Shown here: piece after piece, positions 4,886-51,678 of the stretch
Numbering within the stretch: the first letter of the stretch is position 1
Layout: every line of letters begins with the position of its first letter
Made by a program: the position numbers and the translations under genes
The notes under the pieces: generated by a model
Database searches by the model: none
What the model was told of the DNA's origin: nothing
Seen by the model: the letters and a program-made list of their open reading frames with translations, nothing else
NCBI RefSeq assembly: GCF_900112765.1
Contig: NZ_FOMZ01000002.1
Coordinates: forward strand, 248,001-312,000
Source of the DNA: Actinopolyspora alba
GTDB lineage: Bacteria > Actinomycetota > Actinomycetes > Mycobacteriales > Pseudonocardiaceae
Reading direction: 5' to 3'
DNA length: 64,000 bases

Positions 4886-7241
<2,356 letters not shown>

Positions 7242-33944: not shown

Positions 33945-36038
33945 TCACGCGTTCTCGCCGGTCCGCTGCTCGAGCGGTCCCGCCGCCAGCAGTGTCTTGA
34001 GTTCCGTCAAAGGCATCGCGGGCGCGAACAACCACCCCTGGAAAGTGTGCACACCGACGTCACGCAGCAACTCGAACTGTTCGAACGTTTCCACCCCCTC
34101 CGCGGTGCAGGTGCACCCGATCGCCTTGGCCAGATCGGCGATCGCCTTGATGACCATGAGGTCGGCCCGGGTGTTCGCGACATCGGCGACGAAACCCCGG
34201 TCGATCTTGATGACGTCGATGGGAAGTTCGCGCAACCGCGCCAGTGAGGAATACCCGGTGCCGAAATCGTCCACGGCGAACCGCAACCCCTGCTCGGTGA
34301 GTCCGCGCATGGTCCTTCTCCCCCGGTCGGAGAGATTGATCAACGAGGTTTCCAGCAGTTCCATGACCACGTGCCGCCGGTCGAGCCCGGTCTCGGCCTC
34401 GGTCGTGTCCAGCGTGGCCGCGAAATCCGGATCGCCGGGTGACAGTTCGGCGAGGTTGATCGACACCGCTGCCTGGTTCCCGTCGGGTTTGACGGGCCAG
34501 TCCGCGGCGTCACGCATGGCCGTGCGCAGTACGCACCGGTCGAGTTCCCCGAGCAGGTCGGCGCTCTCGGCCACCGGCAGGAACGTGTCGGGGCTGAGCA
34601 GCCCCCGTCTGGGATGGTGCCAGCGAACGAGTGCCTCGGCGGCCACGATCGCGCCGCTCGCACGGACTATCGGCTGGTAGAACAGCGTCAGCTCCTCGGA
34701 CTCGAGCGCCGCGCGCAGCTCGCTCTCGAGCTCCACTTTGCGGTCCATCTCCGAGATGGTCCTCGGCCCGGCTACCGAGATCCGCCTGCGCTCGCTCGCC
34801 TTGGCTTCCATGACGGCAGCGCCCGCCGAACGCAGCAGGTCGTCGACGGTGGAGGTGGTCTCGTCGCCCACGGCTATGCCGATGGAGGCGGAGACCCGGA
34901 TCGGTGGGTGTCCGCGCAGGTACACGGGACGGTGGAGTAGCTCGCCGACAGTGTCGGCGATCGTCTCGATTCCTCCCGCCGTGGCGGGCTCGGGGCACAC
35001 GATCAGGTACTCGTCCGCTGCCATCCGGGCGGCCAGCCAGTCCCTCGGCAGGTCGCTGCGCATCCGCTTGGCCAGTTCGATGAGCAGCTCGTCCCCCGCC
35101 CGCAGCCCCAGTGATTCGTTGATCCGCCGGAAGTTGATGATGTCGCAGTACAGCATCGCGAAACCACGCGTGTCGGTTCCGCTGAGCAGCTCGTTGACCG
35201 CCGCTCGGTTCGGCAGCCCGGTCAGGCTGTCGTGCGTCGCCCAGTAGCGCCATTCCTCCGCGCGCCGGTGGCGTTCGGTGACGTCCTGGAACACCGCCAG
35301 CCAGAACGACTCCCCGCTGGCGCGAACAGATTTCGCGATGTGCAGTTCGCAAATCACCCGTCGTCCGTCAGCACGGATCATGGACCACTCCTGGGTGAGG
35401 TCCTCGTTCGGCGGTTTCCCGGAACGGAACGCCCGACGCAACGGTTCCCTGCCCGGCTCGTCCGGATGCACCATATTGGCGATGTGCGCGCCGCGCATCT
35501 CGTTCTCGTCGTAGCCGAGCAGCTCGCGCAGCGCCGGGTTGGAGTCGAGCACGTAGCCGTACCGGTCGAACACTCCGATGCCGACCGGTGTGAGTCCGAA
35601 CAAGTCGCGGAACTGACGCAGCGAACGCTCCAGCCTGGAGTGCAGCTCGGTGTCGTCCCTGGTGACGCGGGCGAAACCCCGCAGCGTCCCCTCGCTGGAC
35701 CACAGCGCGATGGTGGTCACGTGCGCCCAGAACCTGGTGCCGTCCTTGCGCACCCGCCAACCCTCGTCGGTGTGGCTGCCGAACCGGGCGGCCCGTTCGA
35801 GCAGTTCCTCCGGTTCGCCGGCGGCGAGCTGCTCTGCGGTGTAGAACACCGAGATGTTGTGCCCGATCACCTCCGCCGCCGAGGCACCGGTGATTCGTTC
35901 AGCTCCGGGGTTCCAGGTCGACACGACTCCGAACGGGTCGAGGGTGTAGACGGCGTACTCCCAGAGCGACGCGCCGAACCTGCCGATCAGTTCCTCCGCG
36001 TCGGCCCCGATACCGGGTCCGTTCTCCACTCCGCTCAT
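33945..36038 (-). CDS. PAS-PAS-GGDEF-EAL cyclic-di-GMP protein with degenerate GGDEF
   Basis: A 697-residue cytosolic protein with two PAS domains (about 20-130 and 140-260), a GGDEF domain (about 275-430) and an EAL domain (about 440-690). The GGDEF active site reads AADEY, so cyclase activity is unlikely and the domain may only bind GTP or act as regulator. The EAL domain keeps EALVRW, the INLAEL asparagine, DDFGTGYSSL and EGVET, so it should hydrolyse cyclic-di-GMP. ATG at 36038 has GGAG seven bases upstream and is preferred to a GTG 17 codons earlier. The PAS domains suggest sensing of redox state or a small ligand. Confidence 0.92.
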   Translation of the reverse strand: MSGVENGPGIGADAEELIGRFGASLWEYAVYTLDPFGVVSTWNPGAERITGASAAEVIGHNISVFYTAEQLAAGEPEELLERAARFGSHTDEGWRVRKDGTRFWAHVTTIALWSSEGTLRGFARVTRDDTELHSRLERSLRQFRDLFGLTPVGIGVFDRYGYVLDSNPALRELLGYDENEMRGAHIANMVHPDEPGREPLRRAFRSGKPPNEDLTQEWSMIRADGRRVICELHIAKSVRASGESFWLAVFQDVTERHRRAEEWRYWATHDSLTGLPNRAAVNELLSGTDTRGFAMLYCDIINFRRINESLGLRAGDELLIELAKRMRSDLPRDWLAARMAADEYLIVCPEPATAGGIETIADTVGELLHRPVYLRGHPPIRVSASIGIAVGDETTSTVDDLLRSAGAAVMEAKASERRRISVAGPRTISEMDRKVELESELRAALESEELTLFYQPIVRASGAIVAAEALVRWHHPRRGLLSPDTFLPVAESADLLGELDRCVLRTAMRDAADWPVKPDGNQAAVSINLAELSPGDPDFAATLDTTEAETGLDRRHVVMELLETSLINLSDRGRRTMRGLTEQGLRFAVDDFGTGYSSLARLRELPIDVIKIDRGFVADVANTRADLMVIKAIADLAKAIGCTCTAEGVETFEQFELLRDVGVHTFQGWLFAPAMPLTELKTLLAAGPLEQRTGENA

Positions 36039-36247
36039 CACCAGCTCCGGCCGCCGGGACACGACGACCCGCACGACCCGAGACGTCACCTGTATACCCG
36101 TCAGGCACGGAACTCACCCCGCGGAGCGAGCTCCGGAGGCTCCGGGAACGACGTCGCGGCCGTGAGGCCCGCCCCCGAGTGTCCGCCCGCCCCGCGGTGT
36201 GCGCACGGCACCGTAGGAAACGAAAAATGCTCGGCACAGCCGCCCGG

Positions 36248-36359: not shown

Positions 36360-36914
36360 TCAACGAATTCCCGCGACGGGAATCTCGAAGTGGACCGTGG
36401 AACCGTGCCCGGGATCCCGCCTGGCGTCGTGGACCTCCTTGGCGATGGCACGCCAGAAGGGCTCGGCACCGTCGATGGCCGGGTTGGTGTGCAGATAGAT
36501 CGACTCGTAGCCGGGCACGGAGGCGATGAACGAGCAGGCCGACCGAACCAGTTCGGTGGCCAGTCCCTGCCTGCGGTGTTCCGGGTCCACGTAGGTGCGG
36601 AAGATCTGCGCCGTGGGGCCGGAGGGGTAGCGCTCGGCGATCCATGCCGGGTGGGGCGGACTCTTCGGGCCGTCGGCGCGTACCGAGGCGGTGCCCACGA
36701 CCCGATCGCCGCGCACGGCGACGAACAGCGCGTGCCCCGGCGTGCGGAAGTAGGTTCCCTCGATGTCGATCACGTCGGCGTGCCATCGCGGCACGTAACC
36801 GTGCCCCAGCACCCGGTAGAAGGTGTCCAGCATCAGGGTGCGCGCACCCTCGACGTCGGCGGGTTCCGCGGGGCGAACCACGTACTCCCCCACCACCCGG
36901 GTCTCCTCGGTCAT
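36360..36914 (-). CDS. GNAT family N-acetyltransferase
   Basis: A 184-residue GNAT with the acetyl-CoA loop VDPEHRRQGLATELV (about 109-123) after a beta strand QIFRTYV. The N-terminal half has the helix pair expected for the fold (VEGARTLMLDTFYRVLGHGYVPRWH). ATG at 36914 has GGAG immediately upstream. It is divergent from the cobalamin riboswitch and about 210 bases from it; no functional tie to the operon is evident. Substrate unknown. Confidence 0.85.
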   Translation of the reverse strand: MTEETRVVGEYVVRPAEPADVEGARTLMLDTFYRVLGHGYVPRWHADVIDIEGTYFRTPGHALFVAVRGDRVVGTASVRADGPKSPPHPAWIAERYPSGPTAQIFRTYVDPEHRRQGLATELVRSACSFIASVPGYESIYLHTNPAIDGAEPFWRAIAKEVHDARRDPGHGSTVHFEIPVAGIR

Positions 36915-37126
36915 CTCGCTCCTTCGGGAGTTCTCGAACGGCTCGGAACGAGCACGGCAGTCGCCATGCGATGTCCGTTGCACAATAGTTGCATCGAATT
37001 CGTTCGTGCGGTTGGCCGGACACACCCGCTGAGCTGGAAAAGTTCTCGGATGCCGCGATGTCGTGATCGGCCGCACCTTGACAGGGCACCTACGGACTGT
37101 GAACGTCTGACTCCGGAACAACCGAA

Positions 37127-37271
37127 CGACGGCGTCCAGGAAGCCGGTGCGACTCCGGCACGGTCCCGCCACTGTGAGTGGGTAGCCACCACCAACATGC
37201 CACTGTCGGATGAACCGACGGGAAGGCGGTGGACGGTGAGGAACCACGAGTCAGGAGACTGCCGCCGTCGT
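37127..37271 (+). promoter_or_regulatory. cobalamin riboswitch
   Basis: The B12-binding aptamer is clear. ACGACGGCG (37127-37135) pairs perfectly with CGCCGTCGT (37263-37271) to form the closing stem. The conserved core AAGCCGGTGCGACTCCGGC is at 37141-37159, CCCGCCACTGTGAG follows (37165-37178), and the B12 box GAGTCAGGAGACTGCC is at 37248-37263. Adenosyl- or other cobalamins normally repress the genes behind such aptamers. Downstream, CGGGG and CCCCG (37283-37300 region) form a hairpin right before a GGAGGAGG site. The aptamer controls the 37490-45667 operon. Confidence 0.95.
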
Positions 37272-37315
37272 GCCGATTCGTACGGGGTCGCGGAGCCCCG
37301 GAGGAGGTAACGACG

Positions 37316-37417
37316 TTGCCGCACCGAGTTGCGAGCACGACACCGTTCGAGCCGTCCCGTCGCGGAAGCCGCGACGCACTCGCGCTGACACCCGCCCCAC
37401 TCGGCGTGCGCGCCTGA
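37316..37417 (+). CDS. possible 33-codon leader ORF after the riboswitch
   Basis: TTG at 37316 lies eight bases after GGAGGAGG, the strongest Shine-Dalgarno sequence near the riboswitch. It opens a 33-codon frame (MPHRVASTTPFEPSRRGS and so on) ending at 37417, 72 bases before the first large gene. The peptide is basic and matches nothing I know. It could be a leader peptide through which the riboswitch acts on translation or Rho access, or simply chance. Confidence 0.35.
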   Translation: MPHRVASTTPFEPSRRGSRDALALTPAPLGVRA

Positions 37418-37489
37418 ACGACCTCTCGCCAACAGTCGCGGCCGACTCCTCCGATTCCCCGGAGCGAACCGGGACGCGCGGAGACACTT

Positions 37490-38425
37490 ATGTCTACTAC
37501 GGACTTGTCTTCTCCGGATCCTCATCGCACCGTGCTGGACGACCTGATCCGGCGCACCCGCACGGCAGCGAACGGGCTCCCCGACGAGAACACCCCACGG
37601 CGAACGACCGCCTCGGTGGCGTTCCGCACCGAACAGAGCGCACGACACGGCGGCAGAAGCACGGGATACGTGAACTCGGTGCTCAGCATCCGTGTCGGCG
37701 AGGTGATCGGTTCCTGCGCCACCGAGCCCGGCGAACTCCACGCGGGAGCGCTCACCGGGATAGCGGGCAGCAGTGTCGACGAGCTGCTCCGGCATCCCGT
37801 GACGGCGGTGCGGGTCGCCGCGCTGGACGCGTATCTGACCTGGCTCCGGCCACACACCTCCCATCCCGCTGCCCGAACCGTGCGTGTCCCAGCCGGCGAC
37901 TCGCTGCGGAAGTCGACCGCGCGGGCCGAGATCGTGGCGAACCTGCTGCCCGAGAGCGCTACCGGCCCGGTGGCGGTGATCGGCGTGGTGAACTCGCTGC
38001 TGGCGGCGCTGACAGGACGCGGCTTCGACTACGTCCCCTGTGACCTCAAGGGTGGACACACCGAATGGGGCGAACCGATCCGGACCGAGCACTCCGAGGC
38101 GATCCGCGAGGCGGGATCGGTGCTGGCCTCCGGCATGGTGCTCGGCAACGGGACCTTCGACGAGATCGCGGCGCACTGCCGCGACAGCGGGGTACCGCTG
38201 GTGGTGTTCGCGCAAACCGGCAGTGCCGTGTTCCGGGAACTGCTCGGCGACGAGGTGACCGCCCTGTCCGCGGAGCCGTACCCGTTCTTCTGGCTGACCG
38301 GCGAGGCCGGTGACATCCACACCTACCCGGCCACGACCCCACCGCGGGCCGGCGAGCGCACCGAACCGGACACCGCCCCGCCACCCTCTCGGACGGCGCG
38401 TCGCACGGAAGGTGGTGCGGTGTGA
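37490..38425 (+). CDS. DUF4213/DUF364-like protein, putative heavy-metal chelation family
   Basis: A 311-residue protein. Residues about 12-120 resemble the DUF4213 N-terminal domain, and about 155-285 the Rossmann-like DUF364 domain: AVIGVVNSLLAALTGRGFDY, then SVLASGMVLGNGTFDEIAAH (about 210-229), where family members have a TGTTLxNGT motif. Pfam labels these families putative heavy-metal chelation; the enzymatic role is not established. A proline- and threonine-rich tail ends the protein. GGAGA precedes the ATG. It is the first gene of the riboswitch-controlled unit and overlaps the next by GTGA. I infer a part in making or handling a metal-binding small molecule. Confidence 0.7.
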   Translation: MSTTDLSSPDPHRTVLDDLIRRTRTAANGLPDENTPRRTTASVAFRTEQSARHGGRSTGYVNSVLSIRVGEVIGSCATEPGELHAGALTGIAGSSVDELLRHPVTAVRVAALDAYLTWLRPHTSHPAARTVRVPAGDSLRKSTARAEIVANLLPESATGPVAVIGVVNSLLAALTGRGFDYVPCDLKGGHTEWGEPIRTEHSEAIREAGSVLASGMVLGNGTFDEIAAHCRDSGVPLVVFAQTGSAVFRELLGDEVTALSAEPYPFFWLTGEAGDIHTYPATTPPRAGERTEPDTAPPPSRTARRTEGGAV

Positions 38426-39543
38426 GCGATCCGGAGCGCGTACCCGGCGACAGGAAGTACCACTCCCTCTCCGAGCTGGTCGGCAACACCCCGCTGCTGC
38501 GCGTCACCACCCCGCTTCCAGATCCGCAGCCGGGGTTCTGGGCGAAGCTCGAAGGACTCTCCCCCGGTGGTATGAAGGCCAGAGCGGCACTGTCCATGGT
38601 GACCGGAGCACGCCGCCGCGGCGAACTCGCCGAGGGCGGCACGATCGTGGAGTCCACCAGCGGAACCCTGGGTATCGGACTAGCCTACGTGGGAATCGCA
38701 CTCGGCCACCCCGTGATCCTGGTGACCGACCGGGAGATCGACGCGCTGACGCTGGCACTGCTGCGCGCCCACGGTGCGCGGGTCGAGATCGTCGGAGAGC
38801 CGCACCCGCGAGGCGGTTGGCAGCGGGCACGCCGCGACAGGGTGAACGAGCTGCTGGCCGAGCACGCGGGAGCCTTCTGGCCGGATCAGTACAACAACCC
38901 GGACAACGCCGCGGGCTACGAACCCCTCGGTCGAGAGCTGCTGAACCAGCTCGACCGACTGGACACAGTGGTCTGCAGTGTCGGCACCGGTGGCCACAGT
39001 GCCGGTATCGCATCCGCCATCCGCCCGCACCGGCCGGACGTCCGCATCGTCGGAGTCGACTCCCCCGGTTCCACCCTGTTCGGCGAACCACCGGAGAAAC
39101 GCCTGATGCGGGGCCTGGGAAGCAGTATCCATCCGGACAACGTCGCCTACGACCGGTTCGACGAGGTGCACTGGGTCGGCCCGGCCGAAGCGGCACGGAC
39201 GTGTCGGGAACTTGCCCGGGGGAACTTCGTCAGCGGAGGCTGGAGCACCGGCGCGGTCGCTCTCGTCTCGGCCTGGTACGCGGCCGAGACCGGGTCGGAC
39301 CGGATCGTGGGCGTCTTCCCGGACGGTCCACACCGCTATTGGGAAACCATCTACGACGACGAGTTCGTCGATCGCAACGGACTGCACACCACGCGGGGAG
39401 AGCGGCGTCCGGTCGGTCGGGAGGACGAGCGCCACGAGGGGACCGCCCGCTGGAGCAGGTCGCGCCGCGTGGCCGACCCGTGCCCGGGGCGTACCGCCGG
39501 AACCGACTGCCCGGTGTGCGGACAGGACGGTGCACTGTCTTGA
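38422..39543 (+). CDS. cysteine-synthase-like PLP enzyme with Cys-rich tail
   Basis: A 373-residue fold-type II PLP enzyme. The cofactor lysine is K52 in LSPGGMKARAAL, the substrate loop is STSGTLG (78-84) instead of the STSGNTG of CysK, and the phosphate loop is GTGGHSAG (188-195). The family is related to O-acetylserine sulfhydrylase and to SbnA, which builds diaminopropionate for staphyloferrin B. The changed substrate loop argues against simple cysteine synthesis. After about residue 320 there is an extra tail with C354, C363 and C366 (CPVC) that could bind metal. Starts with GTG overlapping the previous stop. Likely a biosynthetic enzyme for a small amino-acid-derived ligand. Confidence 0.8.
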   Translation: MSDPERVPGDRKYHSLSELVGNTPLLRVTTPLPDPQPGFWAKLEGLSPGGMKARAALSMVTGARRRGELAEGGTIVESTSGTLGIGLAYVGIALGHPVILVTDREIDALTLALLRAHGARVEIVGEPHPRGGWQRARRDRVNELLAEHAGAFWPDQYNNPDNAAGYEPLGRELLNQLDRLDTVVCSVGTGGHSAGIASAIRPHRPDVRIVGVDSPGSTLFGEPPEKRLMRGLGSSIHPDNVAYDRFDEVHWVGPAEAARTCRELARGNFVSGGWSTGAVALVSAWYAAETGSDRIVGVFPDGPHRYWETIYDDEFVDRNGLHTTRGERRPVGREDERHEGTARWSRSRRVADPCPGRTAGTDCPVCGQDGALS

Positions 39544-40826
39544 GCAAAGCCGCTTTCCGCGGGTTGTCCCCCGCGGCACGACTGCTGGTCGTCAACCAGT
39601 TCGGCATCACCCTCGGCTTCTACATGCTGCTGCCGTTCCTGGCCTCGTACATGAGCGGGCAGCTGGGGTACGGCGCGGCCGTGATCGGGCTGGTGCTGGG
39701 AATCCGCAACCTCAGCCAGCAGGGCATGTTCCTCGTCGGCGGCACCGCGGCCGACCGGCTGGGATGCAGACCGATGATCATCACGGGCTGCGCGTTGCGC
39801 GTGGTGGCGTTCGGCTCGTTCGGGCTGTTCACCTCGCTGCCCGGGCTGATCGTCGCCGCCGTGCTCACCGGGCTCGCCGGTGCGCTGTTCAACCCCGCTG
39901 TGCGCACCTACCTCATCCACGAGGCGGGCGAGCGCAGGGCGGAGGCGTTCGCGGTGTTCAACGTGTTCGCCCACGCGGGCACCCTGGTCGGACCGCTGCT
40001 CGGTGCGGCGCTGCTCAGCGTCGACTTCCGGCTGATCGCCACCTCGGCCTGCTTCGCCTTCGCGGTGCTGACGGTCGCGCAGCTGGCGGTACTGCCACAC
40101 CGGGACATCGAGCGGCAGGAGAACGGTGTGCTGGGCAGCTGGCGGGAGGTGATCGCCAACCGCCGTTTCGTGGCCTTCACGCTGTCGCTGTCGGCGTACT
40201 TCGCGCTGTACAACCAGCTGTACCTGACGATGCCGTTGGAGATTCAACGCGTCTCCGGACTGTCCTGGTCGATCGCCGCCGTGTTCGTGGTCTCCACGCT
40301 GATCGGGGTGTTCGGGCAGGTGCGGATCACCGACTGGTGCCGTCGCAACTGGGGCGCGGGACGCTCGGTCTCGACCGGGCTGTTCTGCATGGGTGCGTCC
40401 TTCCTACCGGTCCTGCTCACGAACCCGTTCATCCCGACGCACTCGGGCGCGGGCGACGGCTCCTGGGCCGGGATCGCGCTGGCCTGTCTGCCGGTACTGC
40501 TGGGCACGGTGCTGTTCACCGTGGGCATGGCCGTCACCAACCCCTTCGCCATGGAACTGCTGCCCATCGTGGGCAGCGAACGGCTGGCGGGCACGTACTA
40601 CGGCTTCTACTACCTCGTTTCCAGCGTCGTGGCCGCGGCGGTGAGCTGGCTGGCGGGCAGCCTGCTCGACGGCTTCAGCGGCTCGGCACTGGGATGGCTG
40701 CCCTGGCTGGCGCTGCTCCTGGTGGGGATCGCCGGCGGCAGCGGCGCCGCGGCGATGCGGCGGCGCGGGCTGCTCGCTCGGTCGAGCGAGCCGAATCGAT
40801 CGGAAGGAAAGGAGACCTCGGCGTGA
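39540..40826 (+). CDS. MFS transporter, candidate metallophore exporter
   Basis: A 428-residue major facilitator with about 12 membrane helices. The N-terminal half shows GFYMLLPFLASYMSG and a loop GGTAADRLGCRPMI, the MFS A-motif position. It belongs to the general drug/solute exporter type and differs from the DHA2 pump at 30.7 kb. It starts with TTG that shares TTGA with the preceding stop. In known systems such as staphylopine, an MFS protein of this type exports the newly made metallophore. That role is inferred from position next to two biosynthetic-type genes and an importer. Confidence 0.8.
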   Translation: MSKAAFRGLSPAARLLVVNQFGITLGFYMLLPFLASYMSGQLGYGAAVIGLVLGIRNLSQQGMFLVGGTAADRLGCRPMIITGCALRVVAFGSFGLFTSLPGLIVAAVLTGLAGALFNPAVRTYLIHEAGERRAEAFAVFNVFAHAGTLVGPLLGAALLSVDFRLIATSACFAFAVLTVAQLAVLPHRDIERQENGVLGSWREVIANRRFVAFTLSLSAYFALYNQLYLTMPLEIQRVSGLSWSIAAVFVVSTLIGVFGQVRITDWCRRNWGAGRSVSTGLFCMGASFLPVLLTNPFIPTHSGAGDGSWAGIALACLPVLLGTVLFTVGMAVTNPFAMELLPIVGSERLAGTYYGFYYLVSSVVAAAVSWLAGSLLDGFSGSALGWLPWLALLLVGIAGGSGAAAMRRRGLLARSSEPNRSEGKETSA

Positions 40827-42355
40827 ACGCGGGAGGTATCAGCAGAAGACGGGTGCTGTCGACGACACTGGGCGCCCTGGCACTCGGCCCACTCGCGGCC
40901 TGCGGCGCGAACACGGGCGCGAGTTCGAGCGAGAACCGGCTGCGGGTGGCGTTCTCCACCTCCGGGGACCGGGAATCACTGGATCCGCACACCAGCACCC
41001 TGTTCGTCGACCAGGCCCGGTCGAAGGCACTTTTCGACACCCTGCTCGGTTACGACCAGGACATGAGCCTCATCCCCCGCCTCGCCGAGTCGTGGGAACC
41101 CGACGATACCGGCAAACGGTGGCGGATCCGGTTACGCGAGGCCAGGTTCCACGACAACAAGCCGGTGACCGCCGAGGACGTGCTCTACAGTTACCGACGC
41201 ATCGCCGATCCCGCCACCGGGTCACCCGCCCAACCCCAGTTGTCGGGAGTGGATTTCGAGGCCAGCAAGGCGAGCTCGGACCGCGAACTCGTCCTGGTGC
41301 TGTCCGAACCGGACTTCACCTTTCCCGCCGCTATGGGCGCCCCCGCCACCGAGATCGTGCCCGCGGGCACCACGGACTTCGGCAAGCCGGTCGGCAGCGG
41401 CCCCTTCCGGTTCGTCTCGTTCGAGACCGGTGGATCGGCGGTGTTCGAGAAGTTCGCCGACCACTGGAACGGCGCCCCGAAACCGGCCGAACTGGAATTC
41501 GTGTCCGTCAACGAGGAGGACGCACGGGTGTCGGCACTGCTGTCCGGGCAGGTGCACTACTCGCACGACATCGGTGCCAACTCGGTGTCGACCGTGGACA
41601 ACGACAGCGGGGCGAGGATCCTGGCCGCGCCGTACAGCACCATGCAGGCGGTGGCGTTCAAGGTGGACAGGCCACCGTTCGACGACAACCGGGTCCTGCG
41701 CGCGGTGCTCTCGGGCGTCGACCGCGAGGCGCTGGTCAAGGTCGTGCTCAACGAGCGCGGCAAGCTCGGCAACGACCTGTTCGGCAGGGGACTCAAGTAC
41801 TACCCGGAGGAGATTCCGCAGCGCGAACGCGATGTGGACCACGCCCGCGGGCTGCTGCGCGAGGCCGGGGCGGAGGGGCTCGACTTCGAACTGCACACCA
41901 GCTCCGCCGACCCCTACTTCGAACCGGCCGCGAACCTGATCGCCGAGCAGCTCGGCGAGATCGGGCTGAAGGTCACTCCCCGGGTCGGCCCCTCCGAGAC
42001 CTACTACTCGGACATCAAGAAGAAGGGCGTAGCCGGGCACACCAGAACGGCGACGCTGCCGATCACCAGCTACCTGTCCAAACGACTGCGCGAGGCGTCG
42101 GTCAGCGCCAACTACACCGGCTACGACTCGTCCGAGTTCGACAACCGCTACGACCAGGCCGTCGCCACGCCGGACGAGCGGAAGCGCGACGAGCTGCTCA
42201 CCGAGGCACAGCGGCACGCACGCGACCACGGCGGCATGATGGTCTGGGGGTTCAGCGACTGGAACGTCGGAGTGTCCAAGCGGGTCAGCGGTCTGCGCGC
42301 GGCCACGCCGAACTCGACGCGCTGGGCCAGGTTCGACGAGGCCGAACTGGGTTGA
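40823..42355 (+). CDS. peptide/nickel-type ABC substrate-binding lipoprotein
   Basis: A 510-residue solute-binding protein of the DppA/OppA/NikA family (SBP family 5). The N-terminus carries a twin-arginine-like SRRRVL (7-12) and a lipobox LAAC with cysteine 27, so it should be an exported lipoprotein. Family marks are SLDPHTSTLF, LAESWEPDDTGKRWRIRLREARFHDNKPVTAEDVLYSYRRI-type sequence (about 95-135) and GSGPFRFVSFE. Relatives bind peptides, nickel chelates or opine metallophores. It overlaps the MFS stop by GTGA. It is the recognition component of the ABC importer formed with the next three genes. Confidence 0.9.
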   Translation: MNAGGISRRRVLSTTLGALALGPLAACGANTGASSSENRLRVAFSTSGDRESLDPHTSTLFVDQARSKALFDTLLGYDQDMSLIPRLAESWEPDDTGKRWRIRLREARFHDNKPVTAEDVLYSYRRIADPATGSPAQPQLSGVDFEASKASSDRELVLVLSEPDFTFPAAMGAPATEIVPAGTTDFGKPVGSGPFRFVSFETGGSAVFEKFADHWNGAPKPAELEFVSVNEEDARVSALLSGQVHYSHDIGANSVSTVDNDSGARILAAPYSTMQAVAFKVDRPPFDDNRVLRAVLSGVDREALVKVVLNERGKLGNDLFGRGLKYYPEEIPQRERDVDHARGLLREAGAEGLDFELHTSSADPYFEPAANLIAEQLGEIGLKVTPRVGPSETYYSDIKKKGVAGHTRTATLPITSYLSKRLREASVSANYTGYDSSEFDNRYDQAVATPDERKRDELLTEAQRHARDHGGMMVWGFSDWNVGVSKRVSGLRAATPNSTRWARFDEAELG

Positions 42356-43302
42356 CACTCGCGTACGTACCGAGACGGGTGGCGGTCGCGGTACTGCAGA
42401 TCCTCGGTGTCGCCGTGGCGGTCTTCGCGCTGAGCGCGCTGCTGCCCGGCGACACCGCGGTGGTGATCCTGGGCAAGCACGGCACCCCGGAGCAGATCGA
42501 GGCGCTGCGGCAGCGGCTGGGCCTGGACGAACCGTTCGTGCGGCGCCTGCTGACCTGGTTCGGAGGTCTGGCGCACGGCGATCTCGGCACCTCGCTGCTG
42601 ACCGGCGCGCCGGTCACCGCCGAGCTCGCCGACGGACTGGCCACCACCGCCGTGCTCACCGGTGTCGCGCTGGCGGTGATCGTACCGCTGGCGCTGCTCA
42701 TCGGAGTCACCACCGGGCTGCGCCAGGGCTCACGGTTGGACAGGGCGGTCAACTCCGTCATCGTGGTGCTCGACTCGATACCGGAGTTCGCGCTGGGACT
42801 GCTGCTGGTGGCGCTGTTCTCACTGCGGCTGGGCTGGTTGCCCGCCACCGCGGCCGGGCTTTCCGGGACCTCGCTGGCGACGCACCCCGCGGTGCTGGTG
42901 CTTCCGGTGGTCGTGCTGGTGTGCAAACAACTCTGCGCGCTGGCCCGGCAGATCCGGATCGGGGTGGCCGAGGCCAACACCGCGGAGTACACCCGGCACG
43001 TCCGTACGCACGGACTGCGGGAAAGCACCGTGCTGTTCAAGCACGTGCTGCCGAACGCGGCAGGACCATCGGTGCAGCAGCTCGCGCGCACCGTGGACGG
43101 CCTGCTGGGAGGCGTGGTGGTCGTGGAAGCGCTGTTCGCCCTTCCCGGACTGGGTTCGGGTTTCGTCGACGCGGTGATGGCTCGCGACCTGCCCACGGTG
43201 CAGGGCTACGCGCTGGTGTTCGCGGGTACGACGGTGACGGTCAACCTGCTCGCCGACATCGCCGCGTACCGACTGGTACCGCGACACCGGAGTGCGTCTT
43301 GA
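42352..43302 (+). CDS. ABC permease, DppB/NikB type
   Basis: A 316-residue inner-membrane permease with six helices. It begins TLAYVPRRVAVAVLQILGV and has LLPGDTAVVILGKHGTPEQI with RQRLGLDEPF, the hallmark of DppB/NikB proteins. The EAA loop that contacts the ATPase is near EYTRHVRTHGLRESTVLFKHVLPNA. It starts with TTG within TTGA shared with the lipoprotein stop. It pairs with the next permease to form the transmembrane channel. Confidence 0.92.
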   Translation: MTLAYVPRRVAVAVLQILGVAVAVFALSALLPGDTAVVILGKHGTPEQIEALRQRLGLDEPFVRRLLTWFGGLAHGDLGTSLLTGAPVTAELADGLATTAVLTGVALAVIVPLALLIGVTTGLRQGSRLDRAVNSVIVVLDSIPEFALGLLLVALFSLRLGWLPATAAGLSGTSLATHPAVLVLPVVVLVCKQLCALARQIRIGVAEANTAEYTRHVRTHGLRESTVLFKHVLPNAAGPSVQQLARTVDGLLGGVVVVEALFALPGLGSGFVDAVMARDLPTVQGYALVFAGTTVTVNLLADIAAYRLVPRHRSAS

Positions 43303-44111
43303 ACCGATCACGGCACCGTTTCCCGATCACGCCGATCGGCTGGCTCCTGCTGCTGGTGCCGGTGCTGACGGCGTTCCTCGGACCGCTGGTGGCCGGTTCG
43401 ACGCGCTCGGAGGGTGGTTCGCTCTCACCTCCCGGCCCCGAACATCCGCTGGGCACCGACGAGCTCGGGCGTGACGTGCTGGCGCTGGCGCTCAGCGGCG
43501 GCACCTCCATCGTGACCATGGCCGCGGCCGCGCTGCTGCTGTCCTACCTGATCGGGGTTCCGATCGCGCTGGTAATCGCCGGGGGACGACGGCGGTGGGC
43601 GGACCGACTGGTGCTGCGGCTGCTGGACTTCCTGCTGGCGCTGCCCGGACTGCTGGTGCTGCTTGTGCTGGCGGCGACCGGCTGGCGGGGCACCACGACA
43701 CTGGTACTCGCGATAGCCACGCTGCAGCTGCCCGCCGTGGTTCGGATAGCGCGCACCGCCGCGCTGAGTCCCGGGACCAGCACCGCGGTGGAGTCGATGC
43801 TCATGCAGGGCGAGGGGCGTGCCCGGATCAGGCTGGGCTATCTCGGCCGCTCGGTGCTCGGGCCGGTGCTGGTGGACGCGGCGTCCCGGCTCAGCCTGGT
43901 GCTGTACCTGATGGCCTCGGCGAACTTCCTGGGGCTCGGTCTGGCCTCGTCGGCCACCGACTGGGCGGTGTTGATCGAACTGAACCGGGACGCGCTGTTC
44001 ATCCAGCCGTGGGCGGTGACCGTTCCCGCACTGCTACTGGTGTCGCTGTGTACGGGGGTCAATCTCGTGGTGGACCGGAGCCTGTCGAACCGACGGACGG
44101 TACGACGTTGA
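43299..44111 (+). CDS. ABC permease, DppC/NikC type
   Basis: A 270-residue permease. HPLGTDELGRDVLALALSGG is the DppC/NikC signature, followed by five further helices and the EAA-like segment SMLMQGEGRARIRLGYLGRSVLGP. The N-terminal cytosolic part is short. It starts with TTG in TTGA shared with the previous stop, the fourth such junction in this unit. It forms the second half of the channel. Confidence 0.92.
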   Translation: MNRSRHRFPITPIGWLLLLVPVLTAFLGPLVAGSTRSEGGSLSPPGPEHPLGTDELGRDVLALALSGGTSIVTMAAAALLLSYLIGVPIALVIAGGRRRWADRLVLRLLDFLLALPGLLVLLVLAATGWRGTTTLVLAIATLQLPAVVRIARTAALSPGTSTAVESMLMQGEGRARIRLGYLGRSVLGPVLVDAASRLSLVLYLMASANFLGLGLASSATDWAVLIELNRDALFIQPWAVTVPALLLVSLCTGVNLVVDRSLSNRRTVRR

Positions 44112-45667
44112 ACCGACCACTTCTCGAAATCACCGGCCTGGCGGCGAACGCGGTGGGAACCCGCCTGCTCGACGACGTGACGCTGGGCGTGAATCCCGGG
44201 GAAACACTTTGCGTGCTCGGGGAGTCCGGCAGCGGCAAGACAACACTGGGGCTGGCCGCACAGGGCGAGCACGGCACCGGTGTCGAGCTGTCCGGCAGCG
44301 TACGGCTACGCGGGCTGGATCTGCTCTCGCCGCGTGAACGGCGACGGCGAGCCGCGCGCTCCCGGAGGATCGGTTACCTGCCCCAGCACCCGGCCGCGGT
44401 GCTCAATCCGGCGCGGCGGATCGGCAGTGTGCTCGGTGAACTGGCCCCGCCGAGCCACCGGACCCGCGAGCGACGCCGCGACGCGGTTCGCCGGGCGCTC
44501 GAATCGGCGCACCTGCCCCCGGACGAGCGCCTGCTGCGGCGGTTTCCGCACCAGCTCTCCGGGGGACAGCAACAGCGCGTGGCCCTGGCCCACGCGCTGA
44601 TCACCGAGCCCGAACTGTTGATACTGGACGAACCCACCAGTGGCCTGGACACGGTGACCCGGGCCGAAACCGTCGACACGCTGCGCGAGCTCACCGGCGC
44701 GGGGACCGGGGTGCTGCTGCTGACGCACGACCTCGGGTTGGCGCGGGAACTGGCGGACGGGGTGACGGTGCTGCGCGGCGGGGAGGTCGTGGAGCGGGGA
44801 GCCACCGGAAGGGTGATGCGCGAGCCGGCGCACGAGTACACCGGTGCGCTGCTCGCGGCCGAACCACGGCTCCCGGTGTCCGGACACGGAATCGCCGAAC
44901 CGGATCCGTCGCCCTCGGTGGGTGGTCTGCGGGCGGACGGTCTCCGCAGTACGAGTCCCACCGGTGTCCCGCTGCTGCACGAGGCCGAACTGGCCGTGCC
45001 CCCGGGACACCGCGTTGCCGTCGTGGGACGTTCCGGGGCGGGCAAGACCACGCTGGCACGCTGTCTCGCCGGGCTCACCCCGGCCGATTCCGGTCGGATC
45101 GAGCTCGACGGCGCCGTACTGGACAACGACATCCACCGACGGAGCAGACGGCAGCGCGGCGCGGTGCAGTACGTACACCAGGACGCCAGGGCCTCCTTCG
45201 ACGAGTTCCGCACCGTCGGAGGGCAACTGGCCCGCACCGTCCGGCTGAACCGGGGTGGCACCCGACGGTCGGCGCGGGAGGCGACGGCACGTGCGCTCCG
45301 CTCCGTGGGGTTGGACGAGGCCACGCACGAGCGGCGTCCGGCCGAGCTCTCGGGAGGACAGCTGCAACGCGCGGCACTGGCCCGGGCGTTGCTGGCCGAA
45401 CCGGCCGTGCTGATCTGCGACGAGATCACGGCCGCGCAGGACGTGGTCAACCAGTCCGAACTGCTCGGGCTGCTGCGCGAGATCACCGAACGTTCCGCGA
45501 TCGGACTCGTGCTGATCAGTCACGACCTGGCAGCGGTGGCACCGTTGGCCGACGAGGTGCTGGTGATGGCGGAGGGGCGCTGCGTGGAACGGGCTCCTAC
45601 CGGAAGGTTGCTGGGATCGCCCCGATCGACCGTGGCAACCCGTCTCGTCACCGCCGCGCGGCGGTAG
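44108..45667 (+). CDS. fused double ABC ATPase, DppDF/NikDE type
   Basis: A 519-residue protein that joins two ATPase domains. Domain 1 has Walker A GESGSGKT (38-45), signature LSGGQQQR (150-157) and Walker B LLILDEP. Domain 2 has Walker A GRSGAGKT (307-314), signature LSGGQLQR and Walker B VLICDEI. Most Dpp/Nik systems encode these as separate proteins; the fusion fixes them in a 1:1 ratio. Starts with TTG in TTGA shared with the permease. It is the last gene; the following gap contains motif B twice and element A. Confidence 0.93.
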   Translation: MNRPLLEITGLAANAVGTRLLDDVTLGVNPGETLCVLGESGSGKTTLGLAAQGEHGTGVELSGSVRLRGLDLLSPRERRRRAARSRRIGYLPQHPAAVLNPARRIGSVLGELAPPSHRTRERRRDAVRRALESAHLPPDERLLRRFPHQLSGGQQQRVALAHALITEPELLILDEPTSGLDTVTRAETVDTLRELTGAGTGVLLLTHDLGLARELADGVTVLRGGEVVERGATGRVMREPAHEYTGALLAAEPRLPVSGHGIAEPDPSPSVGGLRADGLRSTSPTGVPLLHEAELAVPPGHRVAVVGRSGAGKTTLARCLAGLTPADSGRIELDGAVLDNDIHRRSRRQRGAVQYVHQDARASFDEFRTVGGQLARTVRLNRGGTRRSAREATARALRSVGLDEATHERRPAELSGGQLQRAALARALLAEPAVLICDEITAAQDVVNQSELLGLLREITERSAIGLVLISHDLAAVAPLADEVLVMAEGRCVERAPTGRLLGSPRSTVATRLVTAARR

Positions 45668-47737: not shown

Positions 47738-48505
47738 TCAACCGGCCGTCCCGACCGGGGTGAGATCGTCCCCTGCCGGATGCACCGCCCGGGCTTCGGC
47801 CAACCGCCGCCGAGCCGTCACCGTGTCGGCCGTGAGCACAGTGGTCAGCGATCCCCCACCCGCCAACGGCTGCAGTGCCCAGTCCACCTCCGAACGCGGC
47901 TCGGGATCCCGGTCCCAGACCACGACCTCGTTGGCCAGCACCCGGGCGCCTCCGAGGTGGGCGTGGCTGGCACGCAACCGCTGCCGCCCGGGCTCGAAGG
48001 TGTGTCGCAACAGCGGTCTGCCCGCGCGCTCCAGGCTCGTGCTGGTCACCAATCCGCCCGGTGTCTCCCCGGTGCGCCCCAGCACCAACGTCTCCCGGAA
48101 GCAGGCCCGCGCCGAGTCGGCCAGTCGCACCGAGAGGTCGGCACGGTGCTCGGCGCGGGAGGTCACCACCGTGGGCTCGGGCAGGTACTCGACGGTGCCG
48201 CCCTCCTCCACGTCGACGCTGATCGAGCCGCGGCTGCCACCGGGACCGTGCCCCGGCAACGCCAGCGAAGCCGCGATGCCGCGCAACAGCAGCCGGGCAC
48301 CGGCACCGACCCGGACCCGCAGCGTGAGGTCGTCCCCGCCCAGCGGCGAGGTGGCCGAGCCCACCAGGTGCACGACCGCCCCTCCCGTCGCTGGGGTGCC
48401 ACGACGGCGCGGCACCAGGGTCAGCGGTGCCATCGAGCGCAGCTGCCGCACCACCGTGTTGCCCGCACCGTCGAGCTCGACGGTCAACGAAGCGACCGAC
48501 TTCAT
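47738..48505 (-). CDS. ureD: urease accessory protein UreD
   Basis: A 255-residue scaffold that binds apo-urease with UreF and UreG for nickel insertion. Family segments include [36 protein letters not shown] and [21 protein letters not shown]. The sequence is weakly conserved, as usual for UreD, but the context is decisive. The ATG overlaps the ureG stop by ATGA. It is the last gene of the urease operon. Confidence 0.92.
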
Positions 48506-49939: not shown

Positions 49940-51678
49940 CAGAACAGGAAGTAGCGCTGCGCCATGGGAACCTCGGATACCGGCCGGGGCTCGACGAGTT
50001 CACCGTCCACCCGCACCGCGAAACTGTCCGGATCGACCCGCACGTCCGGGGTGGCCTCGTTGTGCCGCATGTCCTGCTTCGTCACAGCGCGCGTGTCGGA
50101 GGTCGCGACGAGCTCTCGACGCAGCCCCAACCGTTCCGCCAACCCCGTTCCGAGCGTCTCGGGGGCCACGAAGGACACCGATCCCGCTGCGGCCGCTCGC
50201 GGTTCCGCACCGAACATCGGGCGGGACAGCACCGGCTGCGGTGTGGGTATGGAGGCGTTGGCGTCGCCCATCGCTGCCCGCACCGCGAATCCACTCTTGA
50301 ACACCGCGTGCGGTCGGACTCCGAAGAACTTCGGCTCCCACAGCACGAGGTCGGCGAGCTTGCCCACCTCGACGGATCCGACGGAGCCGTCGATACCGTG
50401 CGCGATCGCCGGGTTGACGGTGTACTTGGCGATGTAGCGGCGGGCGCGTCGGTTGTCCGCGGTGTCGTCGCCCGGCAGAGTTCCCCTGCCGCGTTTCATG
50501 ACGTGCGCCGTCTGCCAGGTGCGGGTGACCACCTCACCGATCCTGCCCATGGCCTGCGCGTCCGAACCGATCATGGAAATCGCGCCGAGGTCGTGCAGCA
50601 CGTCCTCGGCCGCGATGGTGGTCGGTCGGATGCGGCTCTCCGCGAAGGCCAGGTCCTCCGGGACCGAGGGGTTCAGGTGGTGGCAGACCATCAACATGTC
50701 CAGGTGCTCGTCGATGGTGTTGACCGTGTGCGGCCTGGTCGGATTGGTCGAGGAGGGCAGCACGTGGGAGTGGCCCGCCACCTTGATGATGTCCGGTGCG
50801 TGCCCGCCGCCGGCTCCCTCCGCGTGGTAGGCGTTGATCGACCTGCCCGCCACGGAATCCAGAGTGGACTCCAGGAAACCGGCCTCGTTGAGCGTGTCGG
50901 TGTGGATGGCCACCTGGACCCCACTGCGATCAGCGGCGCGCAGCGCGGCGTCGATGGCCGCGGGGGTGACGCCCCAGTCCTCGTGCAGCTTGAGCCCTCC
51001 GGCACCGCCACGCAGCTGCTCGGTCAGCGCCTCCTGGCTCGCCGTGTTCCCCTTTCCCAGCAGCAGGGTGTTCACCGGCGCGGTCTCCAGCGCGAGCAGC
51101 ATCCGGGAGAGGTTCCACTCGCCGGGCGTGACCGTGGTGGCCTTGGACCCCTCGGCCGGGCCGGTGCCACCTCCGATGAGGGTGGTGACGCCGGAAGCCA
51201 GCGCGGCCTCGATCTCCTGCGGGCAGATGAAGTGCACGTGGCAGTCGATGGCGCCGGCGGTGAGAATCCTGCCGTTGCCCGCGACGATCTCGGTCGCCGG
51301 GCCGATCACCATCGCGGGATCGACCCCGTCGGCGGTGTCCGGATTGCCCGCCTTGCCGATGCCGACGATCCGCCCGTCACGCACGGCCACGTCGGCCTTG
51401 ACCACACCCCAGTGGTCGAGGATCACCGCTCCGGTGATGACCAGGTCCGGTGCCCCCTCGGCCCTGGTGGCGGTCGACTGCCCCATGGACTCGCGCACGA
51501 CCTTGCCACCGCCGAACACCGCCTCCTCGCCGGATCCGTGCGGACCGGTCGCCAAATCCTCGGTGATCTCCACGAGCAGCTCGGTGTCGGCGAGCCGGAT
51601 CCGGTCACCGGTGGTGGGCCCGAACAGTTCCAGGTAGCGCTCCCGGTCGATCTCCTTGGGATCGCTGTGGTCAGTCAT
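49939..51678 (-). CDS. ureC: urease alpha subunit
   Basis: The catalytic subunit of 579 residues hydrolyses urea to ammonia and carbamate at a dinuclear nickel centre. The carbamylated lysine is in [13 protein letters not shown]; nickel ligands are in [22 protein letters not shown] and [14 protein letters not shown]; the flap cysteine is in [17 protein letters not shown] at 51678 has GGAAAGGA upstream and overlaps the end of ureB by eight bases. A longer in-frame reading through ureB is not coding. Confidence 0.98.

Follow-up and report, generated by a model that had tools for sequence, protein, structure and literature searches.

Introduction

The cnt operons for staphylopine, pseudopaline and bacillopaline each unite a small set of enzymes, an exporter and an ATP-binding cassette (ABC) importer of the Opp/Nik or FecCD type in a single cluster, and the opine-like zincophore clusters of actinobacteria carry FecCD genes alone or together with Opp-type genes (PMC7438024). 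Zur-controlled metallophores known from actinomycetes include coelibactin (PMC6103462) and the [S,S]-ethylenediaminedisuccinate ([S,S]-EDDS) of Amycolatopsis japonicum (PMC6103462, PMC9252823). Among cobalt transporters, CbtBA is repressed by coenzyme B12 (PMC8123684). Here we describe an operon from Actinopolyspora alba, within 64,000 nucleotides of contig NZ_FOMZ01000002.1 (positions 248,001 to 312,000; this whole stretch is "the window", and its own numbering is used throughout), in which a cobalamin riboswitch is followed by a DUF364-like protein, a pyridoxal-phosphate (PLP) enzyme resembling SbnA, a major facilitator superfamily (MFS) transporter and an Opp/Nik-type ABC importer. We propose, with a probability of roughly 65%, that this operon is a B12-controlled, metallophore-type cobalt acquisition system whose products make, export and re-import a ligand.

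Results

A cobalamin riboswitch heads seven overlapping genes

The aptamer matches the Rfam covariance model RF00174 far above its gathering score (99.4 against 31.5 bits, E 1.3e-23), which rules out a chance match, and it is the best of the nine RF00174 matches that this model gives in the whole genome. Seven genes lie 3′ of it on the same strand, in the order DUF364-like protein, SbnA-like PLP enzyme, MFS protein, solute-binding (SBP5) lipoprotein, two permeases and a fused double ATPase (Table 1). Since all seven share a strand, and all six of their junctions are 4-nt overlaps, we read them as one operon. A preliminary description of this DNA, made from its letters alone, had already named a clear aptamer and seven fully overlapping genes of these families; all of this is borne out, the families by Pfam and NCBIfam matches and DUF364 by the profile of its relatives. 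Its limits, 37127..45667, were otherwise correct, except that the start falls 14 nt within the aptamer, which begins at 37113.

The PLP enzyme resembles SbnA and the first protein is DUF364-like

P0002 is a PALP-family protein by Pfam, and its best NCBIfam model is SbnA (TIGR03945), under whose equivalog cut-off (349.95 bits) it remains. It is also under the cysteine synthase cut-offs (TIGR01136, 168.7 against 344.15 bits; TIGR01139, 142.8 against 350.95; TIGR01138, 152.3 against 394.2). SbnA chains are its closest solved structures both by single sequence and by profile, the profile giving 208 bits with SbnA, 181 with a cysteine synthase and 177 with CmnB. An ordinary cysteine synthase is ruled out by the model scores (249.7 against 168.7 bits) and by the profile (208 against 181). 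Two residues of P0002, R137 and Y157, which correspond to Arg132 and Tyr152 of SbnA, are invariant in 29 of 29 aligned sequences drawn from all three layouts described below, the window included; the aligned cysteine synthase 2egu has Ala (beside a gap) and Phe there. The position of SbnA Ser185 is Gly (G188) in P0002, and the Asn of the STSGN loop is replaced by Thr in the structure alignment. The aligned chains 5d87 and 5d84 themselves differ at positions 152 and 185, and we take residues 132, 152 and 185 of SbnA to matter for substrate choice. Thus P0002 classes as SbnA-like, though below the SbnA equivalog cut-off, and the earlier view that this is no ordinary cysteine synthase stands. SbnA and CmnB are 2,3-diaminopropionate synthases of the staphyloferrin B and capreomycin pathways. 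In the SbnA reaction, a unit derived from serine is coupled with an amino acid to give an aminocarboxylate ligand.

P0001 scores 20.0 bits against DUF364 (PF04016), where the Pfam cut-off is 23, and as a single query it finds no DUF364 structure among solved structures (best match E 0.42, unrelated). A relative in the window's own genome passes the Pfam cut-off with 49.4 bits, and a profile of 29 sequences matches the solved DUF364 protein 3npg (E 1.7e-5) over the Rossmann-like C-terminal part.

The subunits of the importer stay under the NikABCDE and Opp equivalog cut-offs (NikA-type 127.7 of 600 bits, Opp2B 229.3 of 350, Opp2C 126.3 of 300), and P0007 reaches 316.5 bits with NikD against a cut-off of 318.7 (among the matches listed, the best 25 of 193). 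P0004 has a twin-arginine (RR) leader and a lipobox Cys, as read by eye; its best solved match is a protein named AgaA, which we take to be an opine binder.

Table 1. Features of the operon and its surroundings, in window coordinates
Feature	Position	Strand	Evidence
Cobalamin riboswitch aptamer	37113..37283	+	RF00174, 99.4 bits, full length
DUF364-like enzyme P0001, 311 aa	37490..38425	+	Pfam 20.0 bits, below cut-off; profile of 29 relatives matches 3npg
SbnA-like PLP enzyme P0002, 373 aa	38422..39543	+	SbnA model 249.7 bits; nearest solved structures SbnA 5d84-5d87
C-terminal cysteine tail of P0002, C354-x8-C363-x2-C366	39481..39519	+	C-x(5-16)-CxxC in last 55 residues
MFS transporter, likely exporter, P0003	39540..40826	+	MFS_1, 118.3 bits; best NCBIfam model MdtH efflux, below its cut-off
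SBP_bac_5 lipoprotein with twin-arginine leader, P0004	40823..42355	+	253.2 bits; best NCBIfam model Opp5A/NikA, below cut-off
ABC permease 1, Opp/Nik type, P0005	42352..43302	+	BPD_transp_1; Opp2B/Opp1B models best
ABC permease 2, Opp/Nik type, P0006	43299..44111	+	BPD_transp_1; Opp2C best
Fused double ABC ATPase, P0007	44108..45667	+	two ABC_tran stretches, 195 bits
Divergent GNAT acetyltransferase, possible accessory gene	36360..36914	-	Acetyltransf_1, 53.3 bits

The enzyme pair occurs in three layouts

Scanning a single genome for each species gave 356 relatives of the DUF364 protein, and the best 80 of the 356 were analysed (13 of type A and 67 of type B, as defined here). A PLP relative is present in all 80 loci, and by gene content three layouts of this actinobacterial DUF364-PLP cassette can be told apart. 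The first, type A, is the layout of the window and comprises loci from Actinopolyspora, Saccharopolyspora, Saccharomonospora, Prauserella and one metagenome-assembled genome; DUF364, PLP and MFS genes stand together in 13 of 13, importer genes are adjacent in nine, and there is no ATP-grasp match in any of the 13. Type B is mostly from Streptomyces, with Rhodococcus, Kitasatospora and one Saccharopolyspora, and adds an ATP-grasp gene (67 of 67) and usually enolase-superfamily (65) and methyltransferase (60) genes to the MFS (64) and solute-binding protein (61) genes, some contigs ending early; by Pfam the additional genes are an ATP-grasp with an L-amino acid ligase domain, MR_MLE_C and Methyltransf_25. 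Type C, found in the window's genome and others, pairs DUF364 with a more distant PLP enzyme (26-29% identity). Seven of the eight type-C loci examined have FecCD, FecE and binding-protein relatives, the other (L039) Opp-type genes instead, and six have an MFS relative. The second cassette of the window's own genome (L033, G000:C26:16001-36000) is of this kind, with MFS, FecCD, FecE, binding protein, DUF364 and PLP genes and a Zur-like box at 7103 with 3 mismatches. The named loci, five further type-A loci and the survey genomes used below overlap (L046 is G005, L047 is G001, L055 is G034 and L058 is G078) and are not independent.

A FastTree phylogeny places type A as one clade (support 1.0) among type-B branches, with support of 0.378 at the fork that holds all of A and B, and a quick IQ-TREE run puts A and B on opposite sides of one branch (supports 75 and 79, neither starred). 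This fits a single origin of each layout, A and B. A derivation of type A from type B is not established by these trees.

The type-B loci (L059-L125) form an observation in their own right: a Zur-boxed cluster of ATP-grasp ligase, DUF364, SbnA-like, enolase-superfamily, MFS, methyltransferase and SBP5 importer genes, carried by many Streptomyces and some Rhodococcus, which looks like a zinc metallophore cluster and of which we found no description in the open-licence literature.

The PLP enzymes of type A end in a cysteine tail. The pattern C-x(5-16)-CxxC occurs within the final 55 residues at 11 of the 13 named type-A loci (not L052 or L054) and at all five further ones, one of which shares a genome with L058; it is in none of the 67 type-B enzymes, and none was seen by eye in six type-C tails. 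The tail could bind or sense metal; the counts would be no different had it simply been gained once, in one clade.

Type A bears riboswitches and its relatives bear Zur boxes

Our own riboswitch model (R1) finds a match upstream of DUF364 at 13 of 13 named type-A loci (105-145 bits). It was built from nine sequences, four of them type A, and the test was therefore repeated with Rfam RF00174, which all 14 type-A loci scanned pass (85-103 bits). Near the 67 type-B cassettes R1 gives no confident riboswitch, and Rfam gives no cobalamin riboswitch in the three type-B and four type-C stretches scanned. Weak R1 matches were left uncounted: one at type-B locus L099 that scores 26.6 bits (E 0.0023) and is separated from the ATP-grasp gene downstream of it by about 4.3 kb, others at type-B L076, L077 and L123 (E 0.1-1), and some at type-A L047, L054 and L058.

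The Zur consensus of S. coelicolor, TGAAAATGATTTTCA (PMC2823685), which is matched in kind by a 15-bp Zur motif (PMC5472717), occurs within 300 bp upstream of the type-B ATP-grasp gene at 25, 50 and 66 of 67 loci with up to 2, 3 and 4 mismatches, where 0.03, 0.09 and 0.17 are expected by chance from other 300-bp stretches of the same loci. A box pattern derived from the type-B promoters themselves is found at 66 of 67 (0.23 expected). Six of eight type-C loci, L165 included, have a box at up to 3 mismatches, and none of the 13 type-A loci has one at up to 2, 3 or 4 mismatches within 1000 bp upstream of DUF364. The link of types B and C to zinc is by motif only. A role of the operon in metal supply, as the preliminary description supposed, is indicated because these related cassettes carry Zur boxes (66 of 67 in type B).

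Both forms of the cassette can share a genome. Four genomes (G165, G149, G131, G095) hold a riboswitch copy together with a type-B copy that has a Zur-like box just upstream of its ATP-grasp gene and no riboswitch there; in G158 the riboswitch copy is accompanied by one of type C that has a Zur-like box, and G084, G110 and G078 each have a riboswitch copy and an ATP-grasp copy. A search for ATP-grasp relatives in 14 type-A genomes (a set that differs from the 14 of the family survey below) found none at E 1e-20 in eight, the full cluster enzyme in four and distant ones only in two; since eight lack a relative, type A does not need ATP-grasp.

Detached importers have riboswitches of their own

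In five genomes of one genus (G165, G149, G131, G110, G078) MFS is the last of the type-A genes, and the stretch examined contains no importer relative; in G131, for example, riboswitch, DUF364, PLP and MFS are followed by 8.7 kb without one. Each of the five has elsewhere a copy of the window's solute-binding protein at 60-63% identity (the type-B copy has 43-45%), about 0.19, 0.27, 1.2 and 1.6 Mb from the maker genes in G165, G149, G131 and G110 and on another contig in G078. Directly upstream of every one of the five detached sets, each consisting of the binding protein and two permeases, is a cobalamin riboswitch of its own (90-98 bits). This suggests that the genes for import and those for making and export are both under B12 control even when apart. 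The five detached importers may represent one event.

The riboswitch form is local, in genomes that differ in their other cobalt transporters

Of 150 genomes of the window's family, as drawn in the style of the Genome Taxonomy Database (GTDB), 62 match DUF364, and the riboswitch form is present in 14 of the 62 (11 of the 29 loci first examined and three of seven second high-scoring loci, only higher-scoring matches being examined). That form was found within this family only, and the NCBI taxonomy divides its lineage into Actinopolysporaceae and Pseudonocardiaceae. A survey of the class found matches in 30 of 394 genomes, and a Zur-like box (up to 3 mismatches, anywhere in the short stretch) is present at 16 of the 28 new loci, the core outside type A usually being Zur-boxed. 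The B12-controlled form therefore looks local to one lineage. Thus the proposed link of this neighbourhood to B12 riboswitches holds for the exact layout (13 of 13 named loci; 14 of 14 by Rfam) but not across the class, where a riboswitch accompanies one of 30 cassette loci, the window's own.

Other cobalamin riboswitches of the window's genome precede genes that, by eye, encode B12-type transporters, MetE, ribonucleotide reductase and corrin enzymes, and one precedes a nickel-cobalt transporter (NiCoT), confirmed by PF03824. CobN is present in all 14 type-A genomes of the survey and in 137 of the 150. Both CbiM and NicO are missing from nine of the 14, against 26 of the 123 other CobN-positive genomes (Fisher p 0.0014, uncorrected for kinship); an earlier subset of 11 type-A genomes gave seven of 11 (p 0.006), to which three genomes were added. 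NicO was counted at E < 1e-20 (62 genomes; 72 of 150 are over the model cut-off), and none of the nine is among the 82 NicO matches. The operon as sole cobalt importer of the window's genome is rejected, as CbiM and the riboswitch-preceded NiCoT are present; it may serve some species as their principal route for cobalt and others as a supplement.

Neighbouring genes and dispersed repeats

The divergent GNAT gene is possibly an accessory enzyme of the operon; in the flanking DNA retrieved, relatives accompany 3 of 13 loci of type A and 21 of 67 of type B. This gene, the cysteine tail and the Zur-boxed relatives go beyond what the preliminary description had noted. A signalling protein of the PAS-GGDEF-EAL type (33945-36089, - strand) lies beside the operon, and a similar gene flanks the type-A cassette in L041 and L042 (family by eye).

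A dispersed, near-palindromic repeat with the core GTC(A/G)ATTTCTCGCGAAATCGCC occurs at nine sites in the window (3038, 3809, 15569, 29542, 33801, 45691, 45742, 55215, 58032), two of them directly after the operon. These sites give 12 matches, where shuffled sequences give a mean of 0.01; genome-wide there are 102 forward and 77 reverse exact copies, and the backwards control has 0. At 51204-51499 there is a match to the Rfam 5′ ureB small RNA (sRNA) family (42.4 bits, gathering score 40), which may be coding sequence; a urease accessory-type gene, assigned by eye, is nearby (47738-48505).

Discussion

Our finding that one riboswitch precedes two biosynthetic-type enzymes, an MFS transporter and a solute-binding-protein importer suggests the following scheme, for which we infer the ligand, its secretion, the metal, the direction of transport and the chemistry of the enzymes. 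At low cobalamin, the riboswitch would permit expression of the operon. The SbnA-like enzyme could then couple a unit derived from serine, with O-phosphoserine as its probable source, to a second amino acid at the latter's amino group, and the product of this coupling would be an aminocarboxylate ligand. The DUF364 enzyme would complete the ligand, the MFS protein would export it, and the SBP5-permease-ATPase system would return its cobalt complex for corrin synthesis. The DUF364 step is the weakest of the proposed pathway. An MFS gene accompanies both enzymes at all 13 loci of type A, at 64 of 67 of type B and at 6 of 8 of type C, which counts for this scheme. So do the riboswitches on type-A cassettes and on the detached importers, the Zur boxes of the relatives, the genomes that hold both forms, the SbnA-like residues that are conserved, CobN in all 14 type-A genomes of the survey and the more frequent lack of both CbiM and NicO among them. 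The operon may share an ancestor with, or derive from, the zinc-controlled cassettes of the same kind.

Several observations weigh against this proposal. The chemistry and expression of the operon are predicted from sequence, the direction of MFS transport cannot be read from it, and the synthesis of a good ligand by two enzymes is putative. Across the class, one of 30 loci (stretches with 1.5 kb flanks) has a riboswitch, and it is the window's own. Five of the 14 type-A genomes, that of the window included, have both CbiM and NicO; as CbiM and a riboswitch-preceded NiCoT are present there, cobalt probably has other routes into the window's organism besides the operon. Five of the nine genomes that lack both belong to one genus, and the survey of cobalt transporters covered CbiM and NicO but not, for instance, CbtAB. 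A relative of the window's ATPase is absent from the 15-kb stretches around the detached importers (L202-L206), and the GNAT gene, if part of the operon, adjoins only 3 of 13 type-A loci.

The best alternative, though in our view an unlikely one, is that the operon supplies metal without a secreted ligand: the ABC system would import a cobalt complex found in the environment (with a peptide, citrate or a foreign metallophore), and the enzymes and MFS protein would act on it, degrading or expelling its organic part. SBP5 systems often carry peptides and opines, and the best solved match of our binding protein is AgaA, an opine binder. In addition, the role proposed for DUF364 covers hydrolysis as well as condensation (PMC2954201). 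Against this, the enzymes and MFS stay joined under the riboswitch while the importer lies apart in five genomes, which is the split expected for genes that make and export. The ATP-grasp ligase and methyltransferase genes of type B also imply building, not breaking. The nearest special enzymes, SbnA and CmnB, are both synthases.

We consider it less likely still that the ligand is a broad zinc, nickel and cobalt chelator, with the B12 switch merely adding cobalt to a general supply of divalent metals, so that the operon would not be cobalt-specific. The close relatives of the cassette are Zur-boxed, and staphylopine-type ligands bind several metals (PMC7438024); however, none of the 13 type-A cassettes has a Zur box within 1000 bp upstream, and genomes with two copies show separate control by riboswitch and by Zur box. 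Very improbable is a B12-related metabolic operon, for a B12-independent bypass enzyme or for making and moving a derivative of a corrinoid, flavin or pterin, to which the riboswitches before MetE and ribonucleotide reductase genes (by eye) and the flavin or pterin derivatives proposed in the DUF364 structure paper (PMC2954201) could point, since the Zur boxes of the relatives set a bypass operon aside, and MFS (13 of 13, 64 of 67) and SBP5 importer genes (9 of 13, 61 of 67) would be unlikely company for such an enzyme.

Returning to the scheme of a made, exported and recovered cobalt ligand, a more far-reaching form of it would make this the first dedicated cobalt metallophore (a "cobalophore"), for which we would offer even odds. 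Here a ligand made by two enzymes would be exported and recovered under a B12 riboswitch, with a core common to a large, so far undescribed group of Zur-controlled zinc metallophores in actinobacteria; the change of metal would have come with a swap of regulator, without the ligase, enolase-superfamily and methyltransferase genes, and with a Cys tail that may sense or load metal. The distribution of boxes and riboswitches suggests one kind of metal-scavenging kit that evolution has directed at two metals. Because one cassette exists in Zur-boxed and in riboswitch-bearing copies, at times within a single genome, it offers a natural experiment in metal specificity; the cassettes also tie a class of function to DUF364 and bring many Zur-boxed Streptomyces clusters to attention. 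To our knowledge, little is known of how B12-making soil bacteria win scarce cobalt. We found no report, in the open-licence literature, of a dedicated cobalt metallophore or of a link between DUF364 and cobalamin riboswitches.

Comparison with known systems

The first enzyme finds its nearest described relatives in the solved members of DUF364 (3l5o and 3npg), the Rossmann-like C-terminal part of its profile fitting the latter. The 2010 paper on 3l5o took metal chelation from genome context and proposed condensation or hydrolysis in the making of a chelator (PMC2954201). There the family is linked to metals and ABC transporters in general; the window adds an SbnA-like partner, an exporter and a metal-specific switch. 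P0002 belongs to the same PLP family as SbnA and CmnB, its nearest special relatives with solved structures, and conserves the Arg132 and Tyr152 positions, but differs in its sub-cut-off SbnA score, the Gly at Ser185, the Thr for the STSGN Asn and its Cys tail; nor is there an SbnB-like dehydrogenase among the seven proteins of the operon.

The comparison with staphylopine made in the preliminary description stands for the layout, as a Cnt-type transport set (MFS gene and Opp/Nik-type ABC importer) is present in the operon. It does not extend to the enzymes, since no opine dehydrogenase or nicotianamine-synthase-like match is among the Pfam and NCBIfam matches listed for the seven proteins; the operon differs from cnt operons by its DUF364 and SbnA-like enzymes and its cobalamin riboswitch. 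The EDDS system, set beside ours by its description, may, through its Zur control, be related to type B or type C, whereas the window form bears a riboswitch. With the riboswitch-controlled cobalt transporters (CbtAB, NiCoT and others) the operon shares the same RNA control and the same presumed metal, but where CbtAB and NiCoT move the ion, it further encodes two enzymes of biosynthetic type, an MFS protein and an importer with a solute-binding protein.

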